DNA from: a virus
Reading direction: 5' to 3' (one strand)
Length of the DNA: 27,790 nt
IMG/VR virus record: IMGVR_UViG_3300025096_000096
Location: 1 to 27,790 of that record
Part shown: one piece after another, positions 15,335-21,837 of the stretch
Layout: every line of letters starts with the position of its first letter
Position numbering within the stretch: the first letter of the stretch is position 1
The notes under the pieces: generated by a model
The model's database searches: none
What the model was told of the DNA's origin: nothing
What the model saw: only the letters and a program-made list of their open reading frames with translations
Made by a program: the position numbers and the translations under genes

Positions 15335-15997
15335 TTATCCCCAACGCAATCCAAACTTATCAGCACAAACTTTCCCATAACCTACTTCAATAGATCGGTC
15401 ATCGGACAGTTGTTTATGACAAGCAAAACAGTTGCCAGTAAGTTTTCCATATTCACTTGCGACTTTCTCAGGATCACTAACCAATCTATTTAATAGATCG
15501 ATTAGTTTTTCCTGAACCTCTTTGCCATCTTTTGATAAGTAAAGATCGCCATCGGTTTCGATACGCCCAAAGTAAATATTTTCATATCCCCACTTCCCGT
15601 TGCTGAGAAATAATTGTCCTTTGTGCCTAGACTTGTTTGATGCTTTGGATATTTTTATATCTTGGTCATCAAGTCTTAACCACAATTTAGGAAATGATTT
15701 ATTCTTTGGTGATACCGCTCGTCTGAGCAGAGAATAAACACCATTTATATTATGTAGTTTTTTCTCAGCTTTTTCTTGCTTTGGATTCTGAACTTGATCA
15801 ACAAGTTTCAATACCCAATGCCATTGTTTGTCAGACAATTCACCTCTCTTTTCAAAGTGCTTGAAAAGACTTTCAGCGAAGCCAGTAGTTTTTCCATAAA
15901 ACTTATCGTCATCAAGAAATCCTTTTAGCTTGTGAATATTTTCCCTTTTGATTTTTACAATCCATTCTGTCCATAAACCACCGATTACCGCACTCAT
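15335..15997 (-). CDS. DUF6011-like protein with C-terminal cysteine motif
   Basis: 220 aa. The end, KLTGNCFACHKQLSDDRSIEVGYGKVCADKFGLRW, has the TGxCxxC-L-D-SI-G-G-VCA pattern of DUF6011-type zinc-binding domains. An earlier block TTGFAESLFKHFEKRGELSDKQWHWVLKLVDQ is a helical segment often found before it in phage proteins. The middle (KLWLRLDDQDIKISKASNKS, then GQLFLSNG) looks beta-rich and may bind nucleic acid. Cellular role unknown. The start overlaps the stop of the 93-aa gene (ATGA). Confidence 0.8.
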   Translation of the reverse strand: MSAVIGGLWTEWIVKIKRENIHKLKGFLDDDKFYGKTTGFAESLFKHFEKRGELSDKQWHWVLKLVDQVQNPKQEKAEKKLHNINGVYSLLRRAVSPKNKSFPKLWLRLDDQDIKISKASNKSRHKGQLFLSNGKWGYENIYFGRIETDGDLYLSKDGKEVQEKLIDLLNRLVSDPEKVASEYGKLTGNCFACHKQLSDDRSIEVGYGKVCADKFGLRWG

Positions 15998-16275
15998 GAT
16001 GGATCACCATTTTGATCAAGTTTAGTTAAACACTCAATCCTTATAGTTGGATTCCATCTGAAATCAATAACTGGTCTCATATCGGTTTCATGATAAGTAT
16101 GAGAATCATCAAATGATTTTTTACCATCTGAATTTGCCATCTCATAAGCTGAATCCCAACAATCAGTTTGAACAGTTATTTTTTTGTATAGTAAATATTC
16201 TTTCTCAAAAACATAAGTTTTTAAGTCAGATTTTGATTTATCTACATTTTCGATTGCTACTTCTTTTTCACTCAT
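15994..16275 (-). CDS. Hypothetical protein, 93 aa
   Basis: MSEKEVAIENVDKSKSDLKTYVFEKEYLLYKKITVQTDCWDSAYEMANSDG; acidic, with a beta-like strand pattern in the middle. I do not recognise the family. The leader contains a hammerhead ribozyme whose cut would leave a 5' end 54 bases before this ATG. The ribosome site is TATAGGAGATAAAATT. Confidence 0.7.
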   Translation of the reverse strand: MSEKEVAIENVDKSKSDLKTYVFEKEYLLYKKITVQTDCWDSAYEMANSDGKKSFDDSHTYHETDMRPVIDFRWNPTIRIECLTKLDQNGDPS

Positions 16276-16307
16276 AATTTTATCTCCTATAAATGAAAGT
16301 TAATTTA

Positions 16308-16324
16308 GTCAGCATTACACTGAC
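16308..16324 (-). other. Small hairpin just downstream of a hammerhead cut site
   Basis: GTCAG and CTGAC pair around a 7-base loop directly after the 3' strand of stem I. After cleavage it would lie within 6 bases of the new 5' end and could protect it. Confidence 0.45.
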
Positions 16325-16381
16325 ACCAATAGCCAATCTTGCGATTGGCTTTCATAGCATCTCAGCTAATCATCAGTTGGT
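16325..16381 (-). ncRNA. Hammerhead ribozyme, type I, overlapping the upstream stop codon
   Basis: Minus-strand reading: stem I strand ACCAA (16381-16377), CUGAUGA (16376-16370), stem II UAGC/GCUA in the 16-base block 16369-16354, GAAA (16353-16350), stem III GCCAAUC with a GCAA tetraloop and GAUUGGC (16349-16332), U (16331), A17 (16330), then UUGGU (16329-16325) pairing back to ACCAA. All core bases fit the hammerhead consensus, with H17 being A rather than the more frequent C. The stop codon of the 82-aa gene (TAG, 16368-16366) lies in stem II, so the core is also read as codons for Thr-Asp-Asp. The predicted cut is between 16330 and 16329. Confidence 0.88.
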
Positions 16382-16614
16382 TTTAGTTTGTAGATTTCTG
16401 CACCTTCAGGATTTTCCTGAATGCAATCCTCTATGACTTCATTGAGAAATCTTTTTATCTCACTCAACAAAAAAGGCTTAAAGTCTTTTTTATCTTCAGG
16501 CATAAAAACATGACCGCCTGTTCTAGCTACATACATAATGTAGTCTAAGGCAGTCTCTAGTTTTTCAATGTCGTCATGGTTTACTGCTACTTCTTTTAAT
16601 GATTGTTCACCCAT
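16366..16614 (-). CDS. Hypothetical protein, 82 aa
   Basis: MGEQSLKEVAVNHDDIEKLETALDYIMYVARTGGHVFMPEDKKDFKPFLLSEIKRFLNEVIED; helical and acidic, no known family. The ribosome site is TTAGGAGAATTAAT. The leader has the covarying GGCGAA element (16638-16682). The last codons form part of a hammerhead ribozyme. Confidence 0.7.
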   Translation of the reverse strand: MGEQSLKEVAVNHDDIEKLETALDYIMYVARTGGHVFMPEDKKDFKPFLLSEIKRFLNEVIEDCIQENPEGAEIYKLKPTDD

Positions 16615-16637
16615 ATTAATTCTCCTAATTTGAGTTT

Positions 16638-16682
16638 GGGATAATTCCCATTAATAACACCAAATGATGCTATTAAGGCGAA
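16638..16682 (-). promoter_or_regulatory. Leader element B (UUCGCC...AUUAAUGGG)
   Basis: Minus strand: UUCGCC-UUAAUA, a 14-base loop, UAUUAA... wait-free arms UUAAUA (16656-16651 partner 16676-16671), then UGGGAAUUAUCCC and the SD. The outer pairing CC/GG continues the stem. A near-identical element with a different but still pairing stem is at 21860-21907. Confidence 0.55.
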
Positions 16683-16729
16683 TCTCACAAAAAATGGCTT
16701 CACCATTGCTCGTCTAATGCAAAGTTAGA

Positions 16730-16764
16730 GGGGTAGTAAGGGTATGACATACCCTTACTACCCC
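16730..16764 (-). other. Strong 17-bp inverted repeat after the vWA gene
   Basis: GGGGTAGTAAGGGTATG and its exact reverse complement are separated by one base, so the RNA forms a very stable hairpin. It lies 18 bases after the vWA-gene stop. There is no T-tract on the minus strand; it may stop exonucleases or act as a processing signal. Confidence 0.7.
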
Positions 16765-16781
16765 CCCTTTTTGCACCAATC

Positions 16782-18215
16782 CTAACTAGCTAAATCTAAG
16801 TCTGCTGTTAGGCAATGGGGAGGTAGATGGATTACTTCCCCAAACTCAGATTCAGTCACACCCCAATCCATACGAGTGGTTGCCCATAGGACTGGAATAT
16901 CAGGCTCATGTTTTGCTTTTACTGGGTAAAATTCTCCATCAGTAAAAACAATTAGACCCTGTATGTCAGCAACATCATCGGTATAGTTATTCACCAATTC
17001 AAAGATCGGAGTTAATTCGGTTCCACCGCTACCCCTCACTTGCAAGTCTAATGACTCACCCGCAGAGATATCGAACTCATCCCAATAATTCCCTTCTTTG
17101 TCATGGTGAACTATGGTGCTACACCAACAAACTTTGACCTTCTCAATGTTGCATTGCTCAATCAATCCTTGTACCTGACTGGCGAAACCATCCAAGTAAT
17201 AACGAGTTGATCCTGAGCAATCAATGGCGATTGCCAAAGTGCCACCCATAACTGAACTGACCCTACTCGGAAGATAGTTTCCTTTCTTGTAAGTAGAATC
17301 TTTCCATATATGGTTTCTATGTGGTCGATTCCAAGATGTTTGATCGGGGAAAACGCTGACCAACCAATCCTGAATTTTCTCAAGATAGTTGGCAGTTTCC
17401 ACTCCAATCTCATTCAATCGTTCACTGAATGAGTTGTCATAACCACTACCGCAAGATCGACTCATGCTGTCAGCCAATCGGACTTTGTTAGCCAATTCTC
17501 TTTGAGCATCAATATTTTCTTGCTTGGTTAATGGTTTTCCATCTTGGCTCACTGCATCCCAAACACCACCCGCTTGGCTAGTGTTAGATGGTTTTCCATC
17601 ATTAGCATTCGCTAAATCATCACCATCTTTTTTATCACCGCCATTGCTTTGATCTTGATCATCAGAATCACCATCGGATGATCCATCGGATGATCCATCG
17701 GATGATCCATCGGATTGATCGCCATCGTCAGAAGAATTATCAGCCTGATCATTTTCTTGATCTTTCTGATCTTTTTCCTGAAGCAATATAGCGTATATTT
17801 CGTCAGCAGTTTTGCCATCATATTTGCTGTCATACAATGCATCCTTTGGCATCTTCCAATAGGATATTGCACCTGATCTATTTAACTCGCCATTGATTGC
17901 ATAATCAGTTGCGATATTCCATAACTCAGGATTCCTATCATTTCTTCTGAGATGATGTGCCCAAGTGCAATGCAACGCTTCATGCATTAGAACGAATTCC
18001 AATTCTTCATGACTCGATTCATTGACAAAGGATTCACACCAAAAGATATGAGTGCCATCGGTTGCCATTGTAGAACATACATCCTTTGAAACTTCTTTCA
18101 GAATCAAAGGAGTAATCATCGAAGCCATACCAAGATGACCCTTTTGGATGATCGAGGTTCTAGCCTTGACGATTTTGTGTTCTGCCACTTTACTGGCAGT
18201 TGTTTGCTTATCCAT
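16782..18215 (-). CDS. vWA-domain protein with N-terminal metallopeptidase-like domain (DUF2201 type)
   Basis: 477 aa. The N-terminal half has a zinc-peptidase signature HEALH (78-82) in LMHEALHCTWAHHLRR, followed by NIATDYAINGEL. A Ser/Asp/Gly-rich linker (about 155-205, with DGSSDGSSDGSSDG) leads to a von Willebrand A-like domain with the MIDAS motif DCSGST (332-337), the RGSGGTELTP block and FTDGEF. This two-part build is that of DUF2201 proteins, partners of MoxR-type ATPases encoded two genes upstream here. The pair is thought to act as a metal-dependent chaperone or remodelling machine; the phage target is unknown. The leader has a near-palindrome hairpin. Confidence 0.92.
   Translation of the reverse strand: MDKQTTASKVAEHKIVKARTSIIQKGHLGMASMITPLILKEVSKDVCSTMATDGTHIFWCESFVNESSHEELEFVLMHEALHCTWAHHLRRNDRNPELWNIATDYAINGELNRSGAISYWKMPKDALYDSKYDGKTADEIYAILLQEKDQKDQENDQADNSSDDGDQSDGSSDGSSDGSSDGDSDDQDQSNGGDKKDGDDLANANDGKPSNTSQAGGVWDAVSQDGKPLTKQENIDAQRELANKVRLADSMSRSCGSGYDNSFSERLNEIGVETANYLEKIQDWLVSVFPDQTSWNRPHRNHIWKDSTYKKGNYLPSRVSSVMGGTLAIAIDCSGSTRYYLDGFASQVQGLIEQCNIEKVKVCWCSTIVHHDKEGNYWDEFDISAGESLDLQVRGSGGTELTPIFELVNNYTDDVADIQGLIVFTDGEFYPVKAKHEPDIPVLWATTRMDWGVTESEFGEVIHLPPHCLTADLDLAS
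17671..17716. repeat. 12-bp tandem repeat in the vWA gene linker
   Basis: CCATCGGATGAT is repeated three times exactly with a partial fourth, encoding the DGSS repeats of the linker. It is prone to length change by slippage. Confidence 0.8.
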
Positions 18216-18261
18216 AATTTATCTCCTATATATAAACAAATTTTGCAGACAGAATGCCTAC

Positions 18262-18299
18262 ATCAAAACAAATATTGACTGGTCAATACTTGCTTTGAT
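18262..18299 (-). repeat. Near-palindrome copy 9 in an 18-bp RNA hairpin
   Basis: The core is 18275-18286. On the minus-strand RNA the arms pair over 18 positions with two G-U wobbles; on the plus strand those positions would be A-C mismatches. The hairpin lies in the leader of the vWA gene. Confidence 0.75.
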
Positions 18300-18345
18300 T
18301 TAAACCTTCTAAAAATATTTTTATTTTTCAGGGAGCTTAGGAATG

Positions 18346-18378
18346 TTGGTTTTGGGGAGTCTTGCGACTCCCCACCAA
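18346..18378 (-). other. GC-rich hairpin with GCAA tetraloop after the middle gene of the triad
   Basis: On the minus strand GGGGAGTC and GACTCCCC pair around GCAA, inside TTGGT/ACCAA outer arms. No T-tract follows. It begins 2 bases after the stop of the 329-aa gene, taking the place held by hammerheads in neighbouring spaces; no CUGANGA core is present here. Confidence 0.65.
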
Positions 18379-18379
18379 G

Positions 18380-19369
18380 CTAAAATAATCCTTTAGCAGT
18401 GTCAGAAACTTTGACCTTCTTTTCAGCCTGTCTCAGTTTCTTAGCTGTGGATTTCCTAGCTTTGTCATCCTTCTTGAGATTGTCTTGAGATTTTGCACCA
18501 ATGATGTCTTTTCTCAAGTCAGCTACAGTTGATCTTAGATCATCATCATCACCCAATAGATATTGATCTATTGAATCAAGCATATCTCTAAGCTCGTTAT
18601 AGCTACTATCCCTTAATGGATTCTTGGTTTTGTTTTTGGGATCAAACTTTTCCAATCCACTTGCCAATCTTTCGATGCTAGAAACAAGTTGTTTTGCAGT
18701 ATGCTTATCAGCATTCTGCTTAACAGTTTCTTCGCCTTCTTTATGATTGGCAATGATATTAGATTTGGCGACTTCAGATATTGCCACTCTAATATCTTTG
18801 TGATTGAACTCGTTTACGATTCCAATTTCATAATCGAAGATATACCTATCTCGCAGATCATCAGGATGAGGGTATTCATATTCTTTGAATAGATCACCCA
18901 ATCCAACATGATTCTGCTTGGCTTCTTCGATTTTCTTTGAGTAGTCTCGCAATATAATTTCAACCTCATCATCGAAGTTTTTCTTATATCGCTTAACTTC
19001 TTTCTCAAACGCTTCCAATTCAGTTGCGGGTAGCAATCGCCATTCGCCTTTTTTTACCTGTCGGTTTCCTGAGACATATGACTTGCCACCACCCAAAACT
19101 TTATCGTCAGCATCAATCCAAGGTAAAGTTTTCTTATAGATAACTTGATTCCTGAATTGTTTGCCAACCTGAATTGGGGGTTTAAGATATTCAGGGTCTA
19201 ATAAATGCTTAGATACTTTTACTAAATCCGAGTTGGCATTTTTAATATCTGCCAATTCATTTCTAGCACTGGTATCAGCCTTTATCCCACTATAAGTTTT
19301 TATAGTGACCTGAACTTTCACACAAGATTCTGCTAATGCAGTTTTCTTGTCATTATTTTTCTTACTCAT
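18380..19369 (-). CDS. Conserved phage protein between MoxR and vWA genes
   Basis: 329 aa. The pattern VKVQVTIKTYSGIKADTSARNEL, VKVSKHLLDPEYLKPPIQVGKQFRNQVIYKKTLPWID, WRLLPATELEAFEKEV, then LGDLFKEYEYPHPDDLRDRYIFDYEIG fits from memory a phage family (DUF3150-like, name uncertain) found beside MoxR ATPase and vWA genes. The C-terminal third is a long charged, probably coiled, region (DNLKKDDKARKSTAKKLRQAEKKVK). It may be the adaptor or substrate of the ATPase/vWA machine. Its leader holds a three-way-junction RNA with an anti-SD, then a type III hammerhead, then the SD. Confidence 0.8.
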   Translation of the reverse strand: MSKKNNDKKTALAESCVKVQVTIKTYSGIKADTSARNELADIKNANSDLVKVSKHLLDPEYLKPPIQVGKQFRNQVIYKKTLPWIDADDKVLGGGKSYVSGNRQVKKGEWRLLPATELEAFEKEVKRYKKNFDDEVEIILRDYSKKIEEAKQNHVGLGDLFKEYEYPHPDDLRDRYIFDYEIGIVNEFNHKDIRVAISEVAKSNIIANHKEGEETVKQNADKHTAKQLVSSIERLASGLEKFDPKNKTKNPLRDSSYNELRDMLDSIDQYLLGDDDDLRSTVADLRKDIIGAKSQDNLKKDDKARKSTAKKLRQAEKKVKVSDTAKGLF

Positions 19370-19373
19370 ATTT

Positions 19374-19384
19374 ATTCTCCTATA
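19374..19384 (-). promoter_or_regulatory. SD region of the 329-aa gene, 11-nt complement of an upstream anti-SD
   Basis: On the minus strand TATAGGAGAAT precedes the ATG at 19369. It is exactly complementary to ATTCTCCTATA (minus strand of 19479-19489) in the loop of the upstream RNA. The hammerhead lies between the two. Confidence 0.65.
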
Positions 19385-19408
19385 AGTAAAAGTTAATTAA
19401 CTGATTCA

Positions 19409-19461
19409 TAATCCTTTCGAGTAACTCATCAGGCATGACTACTAATGTCATACGAGGATTA
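19409..19461 (-). ncRNA. Hammerhead ribozyme, type III
   Basis: Minus strand: UAAUCC (19461-19456), U (19455), C17 (19454), stem I GUAUGAC and GUCAUGC with a 7-base loop (19453-19433), CUGAUGA (19432-19426), short stem II GUUACUC (19425-19419), GAAA (19418-19415), GGAUUA (19414-19409) pairing to UAAUCC. All core bases fit; stem II is minimal (one G-C pair clearly). The predicted cut between 19454 and 19453 leaves most of the ribozyme in the leader of the 329-aa gene, 84 bases before its ATG. Confidence 0.85.
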
Positions 19462-19537
19462 CACAATGGCGAATAAGGTATAGGAGAATCAAAAAAGACC
19501 CTTATCCCCTGATAAAAATCAGGTAGTGCCATTGTGT
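19461..19537 (-). ncRNA. Three-way-junction RNA presenting an anti-Shine-Dalgarno
   Basis: A perfect 10-bp outer stem (ACACAATGGC at 19461-19470 with GCCATTGTGT at 19528-19537) encloses two hairpins: CCTGAT-loop-ATCAGG (19508-19523) and an ATAAGG/CCTTAT hairpin (19473-19505). The large loop of the latter carries ATTCTCCTATA, complementary to the SD of the next gene. It lies directly upstream of the hammerhead at 19409-19461. Confidence 0.6.
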
Positions 19538-19558
19538 ATCAATTTTTGATCAGACCAC

Positions 19559-20647
19559 TTAAACCAAGATGTCTTGGTTTTTAATGTGCCAATCAATAAA
19601 GACCGAAGTCTCTTTGAATTTTGATTCTTTTGTTGTGAGTGCTTTGACAAACAAAACTGAATACTCTTTAGCATCAAAACGCTCTATATAAGTCAGAGCA
19701 TTTTCAAATTGCTTTGGAGTTTCAACCGCATTGATCAGAGATGCAACACTTGCATATTGCAGTTCTGTCCTTTCAGGTAGTTTTGCTGTTTTTGGACTCT
19801 TGAGAATTTTAGTTGGCGATTCCAATTCATTTTGGAATGCACAAAAAGTTTCAAACTCTCTAGCGACTGTTTCACCCAAGTAAGATTCCAACACTGGCTG
19901 TATCAGTGATCGTCTAAGATCACCAGTCAGCATTTCACTTACTTGATGCCAAATTCTTGGTGCGGGAAATCCACCCTCTTTCTTGGCATCAAATTGATGT
20001 AAGAATTGAGGTTGGAAAGTTAAGAATGCCAGTATGTCAGCATTAATATTATTCCCATATCCCCACTCTAACCACTCATTCGTATCAGGAACTAATTCCA
20101 AAGTTAAACAAGCAGATTGAAAGTGAGTCAAGATTCTTTGAGCACCCGCTCTATCGGTTGAATGATTACCCGCAAGGATAATTTTCCAACCAGTAGGCAA
20201 AACATAATCAGTGCCAATTCGACCTTCAAAAGTCAGTTGGCGAATTGTGTTTTGTAGTGCGGGAGTTGCTTGGGCTACTTCATCCAAAAACAAAAGACCT
20301 TTACTGTTTTTATCTGTAGGCAGATTATCCAGTAATGCTCTTTTCTGACTGCCAGTTTTATCATCGATATATGGCAACCCTGAAAAGTCGATTGGCTCAT
20401 ACATGGCGACCCTAAAATCAGCGAAACCAAATTCATTTTTCTTTGGCTTCACATTATAGATTGGTCGATCCTTATGATCCCTTAACAGTTTCAGTTTAGA
20501 TTTGTCAGCAATAGTCTGAGCAATCTCAAAGACTAGAGAAGATTTACCGATAGCGGGACTTCCTTTTATGAAAGGCACACTGCTCGATGCATTCTCTAAG
20601 TTATGTAAGATTACTTCGACTAGTTCACTAGCTTTTAATTTACTCAT
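19559..20647 (-). CDS. MoxR-type AAA+ ATPase
   Basis: 362 aa. Walker A GSPAIGKSS (29-37), Walker B GLLFLDEVAQA (117-127), sensor-1 region WKIILAGNHSTDRAGAQRI and following LTLELVPDTNEWLEWG are those of MoxR/CbbQ-type AAA+ ATPases. These work with vWA-domain partners to remodel or metallate target proteins; the partner is encoded two genes downstream. The start has TAGGAGAAAATT. The 163-base space before it is filled by a near-palindrome hairpin and a hammerhead. No frameshift is seen. Alternative: NorQ/CbbQ-like regulator of an unknown phage or host enzyme. Confidence 0.92.
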   Translation of the reverse strand: MSKLKASELVEVILHNLENASSSVPFIKGSPAIGKSSLVFEIAQTIADKSKLKLLRDHKDRPIYNVKPKKNEFGFADFRVAMYEPIDFSGLPYIDDKTGSQKRALLDNLPTDKNSKGLLFLDEVAQATPALQNTIRQLTFEGRIGTDYVLPTGWKIILAGNHSTDRAGAQRILTHFQSACLTLELVPDTNEWLEWGYGNNINADILAFLTFQPQFLHQFDAKKEGGFPAPRIWHQVSEMLTGDLRRSLIQPVLESYLGETVAREFETFCAFQNELESPTKILKSPKTAKLPERTELQYASVASLINAVETPKQFENALTYIERFDAKEYSVLFVKALTTKESKFKETSVFIDWHIKNQDILV

Positions 20648-20679
20648 AATTTTCTCCTATGTTATGTAAATTAGATTGG

Positions 20680-20763
20680 TGCTGATTTCGATTCTTTTGA
20701 ATCAACCTGTAAACAGGTTCTGCTTTCGCAGTCATCAGTAGGAATTACATTCCTAGATCAGCA
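20680..20763 (-). ncRNA. Hammerhead ribozyme, type III, with stem II replaced by three hairpins
   Basis: Minus strand: stem III strand UGCUGAU (20763-20757), C17 (20756), stem I UAGGAAU-GUA-AUUCCUA (20755-20739), CUGAUGA (20738-20732), an insert of three back-to-back hairpins (CUGC-GAAA-GCAG; AACCUG with CAGGUU; GAUUC-AAAA-GAAUC; 20731-20690), GAAA (20689-20686), UCAGCA (20685-20680) closing stem III. Core bases, stem I and stem III match the consensus; the part between CUGAUGA and GAAA is unusual since no simple stem II exists. The predicted cut is between 20756 and 20755, 108 bases before the MoxR ATG. Confidence 0.75.
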
Positions 20764-20800
20764 AGGGGTCAAATATTGACTGGTCAATATTCAACCCCTT
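20763..20800 (-). repeat. Near-palindrome copy 10 in an 18-bp RNA hairpin
   Basis: The core is 20776-20787. AAGGGG and CCCCTT flanks extend the stem to 18 pairs on the minus-strand RNA, with two wobbles (U-G, G-U). It lies just after the stop of the preceding gene (20811) and abuts the hammerhead. Confidence 0.75.
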
Positions 20801-20810
20801 TGGTTATTTA

Positions 20811-21290
20811 TTAAATGCTTTCGTGATGCTTAATGTAAACCAAACATCTCTCGTATGCTTCTTCATATTCATCACAGAAATGATTATCACAATAAGGATC
20901 ATCTTCAGAATATCCTGTGGGTTCATATTCATCCCTAAAGTCATCTGAGTAAACCCAAGTTGTATAAACATCCTCATCACCATTCCAACACACATATAAA
21001 TAGCTATGCTTCTTTAGTAGTGCATTGATTTTTCTTCTGAAGCTATACTCAGTCGCAACCTGTTCAATTTCTTTTTTGAACTCTTTACGACAAGCAACAA
21101 GATCATTTATTGATTTTTCGTAATCAGCGATTATTTGTTTCAACCTTTTTCTTTCTTTGGTGATTGCTTTATTCACCTCATCAAGCCTAGACTTAGAAGT
21201 TTTATTTTGTGCTGTTAGAAATTCTTTATAGTTATCGTGAACTATCAATTCCCATGTAGGCACATTGAATTTTTTATTTATTATTTTCAT
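20811..21290 (-). CDS. Coiled-coil protein with acidic aromatic tail, 159 aa
   Basis: Start taken at ATG 21290 (MKIINKKFNVPTWELIV) since TATGGAGAATCAA precedes it; the frame is open to 21356 but that part is the ribozyme. Residues 30-80 form a coiled coil (SRLDEVNKAITKERKRLKQIIADYEKSINDL). The C-terminus is very acidic and rich in Tyr, Cys and His (DEYEPTGYSEDDPYCDNHFCDEYEEAYERCLVYIKHHE), possibly metal-binding. No family is recognised. Confidence 0.75.
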   Translation of the reverse strand: MKIINKKFNVPTWELIVHDNYKEFLTAQNKTSKSRLDEVNKAITKERKRLKQIIADYEKSINDLVACRKEFKKEIEQVATEYSFRRKINALLKKHSYLYVCWNGDEDVYTTWVYSDDFRDEYEPTGYSEDDPYCDNHFCDEYEEAYERCLVYIKHHESI

Positions 21291-21314
21291 TTGATTCTCC
21301 ATATGAAAGTTATT

Positions 21315-21372
21315 ATCAAGACCCAACCTTTCGATTGGGTTTCGCCTGAGTTTCACAGGCTCATCAGTTGAT
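21315..21372 (-). ncRNA. Hammerhead ribozyme, type I, canonical
   Basis: Minus strand: stem I strand AUCAA (21372-21368), CUGAUGA (21367-21361), stem II GCCUG-loop-CAGGC (21360-21344), GAAA (21343-21340), stem III CCCAAUC with a GAAA tetraloop and GGUUGGG (21339-21322), U (21321), C17 (21320), UUGAU (21319-21315) pairing to AUCAA. All conserved core bases are present. The predicted cut between 21320 and 21319 is 29 bases before the ATG at 21290. It starts one base after the stop of the upstream gene. Confidence 0.93.
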
Positions 21373-21837
21373 TTAAAAGTCAGCTATTGCATTCAGATCA
21401 GTGCCACTAACGAACTCGCTAGATTCAAAAACTTTCTTAGCAAATTCAGGATCAAAACTATCGTCAGATAGTTTCAACACTTTCTCTTTTGAACCTTCAA
21501 CAGCATTCGGTAGTTTTAAATGATCAAGGAATGCTTGTGGCAATGGATTCATTTGCCTAACCAAGACTTGCTCATGATTTCTCTGAGCAATCCTAAAGTC
21601 ATAACCTAGTGCATCAAGAATGCCATTGATTCTTTCTCTAGTGGTTGGTGTATGCCATCCACATAGATCAATCTTCACAGATTTTGACTGGTCATATGAT
21701 CTAGCGATTTCAGCTATGCAGTTGTCATGCAAATAAAATCTAGAGATTAAATCTAAGGACACTACCTCAGTATTGGACTTCTTGTATTGATCGAAATTCA
21801 CAAATGCTTCTGAACTTTCTTTAGTAATTTTTCTCAT
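21373..21837 (-). CDS. Conserved phage protein, first gene of the long operon
   Basis: 154 aa from ATG 21837 (MRKITKESSEAFVNFDQYKKSNTEV) with AATAGGAGAAAAATT. The pattern AFVN-x-NTEV, LHDNCIAEIARSY, then KIDLCGWHTPTTRERINGIL is that of small phage proteins I have seen in many tailed phages (LHGN-IA, GW-T-TTR-RLN); function unknown. Here it carries an extra C-terminal half (residues 85-154). A degenerate near-palindrome copy lies in it at 21684. Confidence 0.8.
   Translation of the reverse strand: MRKITKESSEAFVNFDQYKKSNTEVVSLDLISRFYLHDNCIAEIARSYDQSKSVKIDLCGWHTPTTRERINGILDALGYDFRIAQRNHEQVLVRQMNPLPQAFLDHLKLPNAVEGSKEKVLKLSDDSFDPEFAKKVFESSEFVSGTDLNAIADF
21684..21695. repeat. Dispersed near-palindrome, copy 11 (one mismatch), inside a gene
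   Basis: TTGACTGGTCAT encodes YDQSK on the opposite strand. It may be a chance or weak copy. Confidence 0.45.

Follow-up and report, generated by a model that had tools for sequence, protein, structure and literature searches.

The window analysed here is a 27,790-base IMG/VR virus record (IMGVR_UViG_3300025096_000096), and the system under study is an operon on its minus strand in which four predicted hammerhead ribozymes (HH1 to HH4) lie at gene junctions. The operon encodes, in order, a 154-amino-acid (aa) protein, a 159-aa protein, a MoxR-like AAA+ ATPase, a 329-aa protein (p329), a vWA/DUF2201 protein, and proteins of 82, 93 and 220 aa (Table 1). The L049 homologue of p329 matches the DUF3150 family, and the vWA protein is 35% identical to distant vWA proteins; judged by sequence similarity, both window proteins are true homologues of those in distant relatives (relatives are cited by L and G numbers). 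The Ser/Asp/Gly-rich linker of the vWA protein is partly encoded by tandem GATCATCCGATG repeats (17710-17670, minus strand).

Table 1. Features of the operon, listed in the direction of transcription.
Feature	Position	Strand	Remarks
154-aa protein, Kyano_Gp96 family	21373..21837	-	PF23790, E 5e-12
HH1, type I, between 154-aa and 159-aa genes	21315..21372	-	predicted cut 21320/21319
159-aa protein	20811..21290	-	without any family assigned
Hairpin directly upstream of HH2 (AGGGGTTGAATATTGACCAGTCAATATTTGACCCCT)	20764..20799	-	spacer z -6.1, no U-run
HH2, variant type III, before MoxR	20680..20763	-	predicted cut 20756/20755
MoxR-like AAA+ ATPase	19559..20647	-	phrog_1297, E 3e-67; tblastn to phage MoxR-like ATPases
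Branched hairpin directly upstream of HH3	19464..19534	-	spacer 19558-19464, z -3.2
HH3, type III, between MoxR and 329-aa gene	19407..19463	-	predicted cut 19454/19453
329-aa protein (p329)	18380..19369	-	homologue of L049 DUF3150 protein, 31% identity, E 3e-40
DUF2201 vWA-domain protein	16782..18215	-	PF13203, PF09967
82-aa protein	16366..16614	-	3' end overlaps HH4
HH4, type I	16325..16381	-	overlaps end and stop of 82-aa open reading frame; predicted cut 16330/16329
Hairpin GTCAG-TGTAATG-CTGAC after HH4	16308..16324	-	5 nt from predicted 5' end of 93-aa message
93-aa protein	15994..16275	-	open reading frame downstream of HH4

A descriptor scan, which demands the core elements CUGANGA, GAAA and UH together with the helices in any one of three permutations, found exactly four hammerheads in the window, all on the minus strand and the same four that a first-pass annotation had proposed. 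Dinucleotide-shuffled windows yielded 0.45 matches per window, and these were weaker than the real ones. The conserved core (C3UGANGA9, G12A13A14, A15.1-U16.1 and H17) is present in all four, and the computed cleavage sites match the 5'-OH ends predicted in that annotation (21319, 20755, 19453 and 16329). Covariance model R1, built from relatives only, scored HH2 with 36.9 bits (E 3e-8) and HH3 with 15.7 bits (E 0.05); HH4 and HH1 reached 70.7 and 68.2 bits in model R2, the training set of which includes both sequences. An Rfam match above threshold, as the annotation had envisaged, was not obtained: with Rfam 15 the best hit in the window was RAGATH-1, whose 22.0 bits fall short of the gathering score of 56.3, and no usable match appeared at E values up to 10. 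The library is equally blank, at gathering score, for 11 relatives with about 45 hammerheads by descriptor scan, and therefore lacks this group. The missing gathering-level match is a gap in the library models, not a defining biochemical feature.

The four elements differ in their anatomy. HH1 is a plain type I hammerhead with a full core and stems I, II and III of 5, 5 and 8 bp; it begins directly after the stop codon, and its junction is also occupied in L026 and L027. Its stem II is closed and joined directly to A9 and G12, which is not the case in HH2, where three tandem hairpins (20731-20720, 20719-20704 and 20703-20690) replace stem II. HH2 folds as drawn (minimum free energy -30.6 kcal/mol, z -5.4). 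L024 and L030 have the same variant, and in L030 the third hairpin shows a compensatory change; L025-L029 carry a plain type III at the orthologous site. HH2 may be a weak ribozyme, because two further hairpins separate its stem II from GAAA. The types assigned in the first-pass annotation thus hold for HH1 and HH4 (type I) and for HH3 (type III), while HH2 is not a canonical type III.

HH3, which is kept in L024-L028, has a minimal stem II of 1 bp plus U.U. As for a contact between stems I and II, type III relatives have a conserved AUGUGUAU loop, and in HH3 loop I (AUUAGUA, pairing part AGUA) can pair with loop II (UACU) in a possible pseudoknot. One compensatory change is seen at this candidate pseudoknot, AUUGGUA/AACCA in L029, the core of which has an inserted A. 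In HH4 (fold z -3.9), the end of the 82-aa open reading frame (K-P-T-D-D-stop) is shared with the 5' strand, the CUGAUGA core and a portion of stem II, so the assertion that every hammerhead lies between a stop codon and the next Shine-Dalgarno sequence is wrong for HH4. Its first stem II pair is a U10.1.U11.1 mismatch. Both a U.U first pair in stem II, as in HH4, and a 1-bp stem II, as in HH3, are tolerated known variants (PMC3088659). The descriptor scan found no hammerhead at the junctions of the 329-aa with the vWA gene and of the vWA with the 82-aa gene.

Relatives were collected by the MoxR protein only, not by ribozyme. The resulting 58 loci comprise 55 with 36% to 100% MoxR identity and three remote ones at 22-27%. 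In 59 records (these loci and the window), the scan gave 204 hammerhead matches on the sense strand and one on the antisense strand, and a shuffle control produced five matches in 2.05 Mb, both strands counted. Shuffles and antisense strand together rule out a chance origin. After dropping one long weak call (L058), 203 matches remained, 143 of type III and 60 of type I, one of them inside coding sequence. Besides the L058 call, the match within coding sequence (L038) and composite type I calls which overlap a type III site (L051, L063) are probable false calls. The descriptor scan found no hammerhead in the three remote relatives or in three control phages, the controls being phages with a related MoxR or terminase. 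A GTDB scan of host genomes turned up just two remote MoxR relatives, again with no hammerhead by descriptor scan. The nearest terminases are those of the Pelagibacter phages HTVC027P and HTVC023P and of phages 023Pt_psg01 and DSL-LC04; a cultured relative was sought among them, and three of these four phages (50 kb each) were scanned with no hammerhead found. The family carrying the array consists of uncultured viruses of bacteria, probably marine ones.

The covariation and core conservation foreseen for related phage genomes are both strong. In hand-picked representatives, 13 of 16 pairs of type III and 9 of 14 pairs of type I changed on both sides. Covariation scores were 0.80 for type III and 0.59 for type I. 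Controls with the partner strand slid did not exceed 0.14 for type III and 0.10 for type I, and shuffled controls were likewise far below the real scores. All three helices around the core are backed by compensatory changes in their stems, and the core itself is almost invariant. With the covariance models built here, contigs of 53-63 kb gave significant matches nowhere but in a single stretch of 5-6 kb. Both ends of the L031 contig (G002; 25-84 and 57311-57370) bear a hammerhead of the same score and length, which suggests a terminal repeat and a near-complete genome.

The two types follow different layout rules. In the MoxR set, the start of the element is no more than 10 nt from the upstream stop in 50 of 57 type I cases, compared with 1 of 143 type III cases; for unique sequences the figures are 35/38 and 0/89 (Fisher p 4e-28, indicative only as the sequences are related). 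Type III begins about 60 nt after the upstream stop, behind a strong hairpin: all 93 distinct type III spacers have a fold z below -2, and the median distance from hairpin end to ribozyme is 1 nt. These hairpins are not ordinary intrinsic terminators, because just 4 of the 93 have a U-run. An apical ACCAGT/ACTGGT motif occurs in the spacer hairpins of L009, L031-L039 and others (68/143 type III against 1/60 type I in the MoxR set), and some of the type I ribozymes that precede MoxR contain a similar AAACCAGTA within their multibranched stem III. Hairpins are also found downstream of type I cuts. Among 31 distinct leaders, 24 are at least 40 nt long (median fold z -2.1), and nearly all of these have a small hairpin about 5 nt from the predicted new 5' end; the hairpin is retained in relatives with changed stems. 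The seven short leaders, including that of HH1, have no significant structure. A second set was collected with DNA patterns that describe the ribozymes and a neighbouring element, not through MoxR, and comprises, after removal of duplicates, 148 hammerheads. It repeated the spacing rule (84% of type I against 0% of type III), and 60% of the type III elements, compared with 19% of the type I elements, had a z below -2 in a fixed 60-nt upstream window.

Junction occupancy was counted with orthologues mapped by tblastn. Of 53 records, 52 have a hammerhead at the junction between MoxR and the DUF3150-like p329, among them some with just 38% identity in MoxR. The corresponding numbers are 37 of 48 for p329 to vWA, 14 of 14 for vWA to p275, and 41 of 55 for the junction upstream of MoxR. 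Several of the negative cases upstream of MoxR do hold hammerheads, which the scan missed as stem III has 3 bp or is multibranched; a hairpin-expanded stem III occurs in type I elements before MoxR in L035, L043 and L052. At three of these junctions (upstream of MoxR, MoxR to p329 and p329 to vWA) both types are found, that is, types I and III have been exchanged at orthologous junctions.

From these comparative data we consider it highly probable that the four elements are hammerheads which cut the polycistronic phage transcript at gene junctions into separate messages, with no need for a nuclease of host or phage. The split of the polycistron by two hammerhead types, as put forward in the first-pass annotation, is thereby strongly supported, with cleavage itself as a prediction. 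Separate messages would result for the 159-aa, MoxR, 329-aa (DUF3150-like) and 93-aa proteins. With type I, the ribozyme would stay on the upstream message, which would then end in the stem III hairpin; with type III, it would go with the downstream message, whose start would be the stem I hairpin, and the separate strong hairpin upstream would close the preceding message. In the window, the hairpin before HH2 would become the 3' end of the 159-aa message and the branched hairpin before HH3 that of the MoxR message. Most cuts, that of HH1 excepted, would leave a hairpin near both new ends. Hammerhead cleavage produces 2',3'-cyclic phosphate and 5'-OH ends. Ends blocked in this way should slow decay by enzymes that sense a 5'-monophosphate and by 3' exonucleases; a literature search on 5'-hydroxyl ends and RNase E in connection with hammerheads found no paper. 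Both designs would thus yield discrete messages with blocked ends and permit separate dosage of the AAA+ ATPase and its vWA partner; this independent dosage is the likely purpose.

Several points weigh against this interpretation. The scan demands helices, so that percentages of paired cells are partly circular; this applies less to the covariation scores and not to the numbers of matches relative to shuffles or the other strand. Degenerate copies exist, with A9 changed in L071 and an A6a insertion in L029 at the MoxR to p329 junction, and a hammerhead is missing from certain junctions within the operon. HH2 could cleave slowly or not at all, given its two additional hairpins between stem II and G12, and HH1 has no 5' hairpin after its predicted cut. 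Gene order and the missing U-runs suggest, rather than establish, that the module is one transcript.

A different role for cleavage is unlikely but deserves mention, namely that the cuts mainly destroy or limit messages, as a timed shut-off with quickly decayed products instead of maturation. Hammerheads inserted in messages do serve artificially as knock-down devices. In addition, type I overlaps the stop codon, where terminating ribosomes could hinder folding and so link cleavage to low translation. However, the predicted cuts lie outside coding sequences and before a retained ribosome-binding site, and for disposal there would be no point in having hairpins at the new 3' ends and at most of the new 5' ends. 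These hairpins might themselves be the conserved unit, as terminator or processing site, with the hammerhead in an auxiliary role, trimming 3' ends. The same TATTGACCAGTCAATA core does recur in hairpins between the 329-aa and vWA genes where no hammerhead is present, but type I junctions mostly lack an upstream hairpin and still contain the ribozyme, and the rarity of U-runs noted above also speaks against it; we regard this explanation as quite improbable.

That pairs of hammerheads free single-gene RNAs, which host RtcB or the reverse hammerhead reaction then ligates to circular messages, is very improbable. A gene with a hammerhead on either side would acquire 5'-OH and cyclic-phosphate ends that match each other, and retrozymes and viroids circularise in this manner. 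A phage-encoded ligase was nevertheless not found: 12 related phage contigs contain no RtcB or RNA ligase family, and hairpins at both ends should hinder end joining. Spliced or circular products were moreover sought in prophage clusters by Perreault et al., who found none (PMC3088659). We see hardly any chance that the elements are fossils or passively copied sequences now devoid of activity. A few cores are damaged (L071, L029), and a single phage such as L028 can have almost identical type I copies at two of its junctions, which would fit this, but compensatory changes run throughout the stems around an almost invariant core, the position at the junction stays constant while the type changes, and the elements are absent from the antisense strand. 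Processing of the transcript into separate messages remains our preferred reading.

Other RNA elements are found at junctions of the operon. A long hairpin with the conserved 3' strand ATTAATGGGAATTAWCCC precedes genes in the window (21904-21860 and 16679-16638, minus strand) and in relatives (L030:11206, L081:6356). It replaces the hammerhead between MoxR and p329 in L030 and lies directly before MoxR in seven other hammerhead-bearing loci (L081, L083, L085-L087, L091 and L094). As a candidate promoter, the ATTAATGGGAATTAWCCC element showed by eye no good -35/-10 pair. The junction between the 329-aa and vWA genes of the window (18301-18244, minus strand) contains a TATTGACCAGTCAATA hairpin and, after it, a small stem-loop that covaries and has a conserved ATTCT loop and a AAAATTTG flank; both are present in the close group, while distant relatives have a hammerhead there. 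These elements may be RNase III-like sites, promoters or unrecognised ribozymes. We give little weight to the tentative idea of a general 'junction code' that employs a number of interchangeable RNA elements, among them hammerheads and, as alternatives, the ATTAATGGGAATTAWCCC hairpin and the CATGTRNNCATTCTGNNYACAAAATTTG stem-loop; under it, the latter two might be self-cleaving ribozymes that have escaped recognition, or sites dedicated to processing.

The arrangement extends beyond the MoxR set. Two ribozyme patterns match 59 and 71 viral stretches, and module genes are present in 60 of the 105 loci L101-L205, an enrichment biased by the derivation of the search patterns from MoxR modules. 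In three of the other loci (L119:2866-6609, L131:5215-8940 and L136:2680-4302), hammerheads lie before and between CobS-like AAA+ and CobT-like genes. The locus L145 (9222-12078) has five type III hammerheads between small genes, and no MoxR module gene was found in it.

The role of hammerheads in phages has been open since 2011, and the module offers many natural replicates. The MoxR to DUF3150-like junction and the natural swaps of two architectures lead to predictable differences at message ends, so that the idea that phage hammerheads process mRNA becomes testable on message ends, stability and protein ratio. There is, further, a wide set of viral ribozymes which current Rfam models do not report and which is linked to AAA+/vWA chaperone pairs. 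The early mRNA of phage T7 provides a known case of polycistronic phage mRNA being cut at intergenic hairpins into stable messages, by RNase III; here, in contrast, the RNA is predicted to cut itself, leaving 5'-OH and 2',3'-cyclic phosphate ends. The elements share with the Rfam families RF00008, RF00163, RF02275, RF02276 and RF03152 the core CUGANGA/GAAA/UH and three stems, but differ by a weak stem II with U.U in many and by a hairpin-expanded stem II (HH2) or stem III.

A 2017 review described the role of prokaryotic hammerheads as open and pointed out a link to phages (PMC6155905). According to a 2023 paper, hammerhead and twister ribozymes are enriched near Mu-like phage genes and near each other (PMC10085705). 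A Mu-like gene was not noticed in the window, and no search for such genes covered the relatives; the ribozymes here accompany AAA+ ATPase/vWA pairs, including the CobS/CobT-like pair in three other contigs. Closest are the clusters of Perreault et al. (2011), for example the triple hammerhead array at ardA of Agrobacterium tumefaciens, in which several hammerheads of mixed types flank genes in prophages; processing into messages the length of an operon or a gene was proposed, and cleavage was demonstrated in vitro and in E. coli (PMC3088659). The novelty claimed for several hammerheads of two types in one phage operon does not extend to clustering and mixed types as such, which were published then with the same proposed role. 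In the searchable literature (few subscription papers, no supplements), the module, layout rule, type exchange and paired hairpins are not described, and in this sense they are new. As in those clusters, single phage genes are bordered here by more than one hammerhead, of differing types and on the coding strand. Whereas gene identities are not constant in the prophage clusters, one conserved MoxR/DUF3150/vWA module is found here in many viral contigs, distinguished by a type-fixed placement rule, hairpins before type III, type exchange at orthologous junctions, and ribozymes that fall below the Rfam gathering score.

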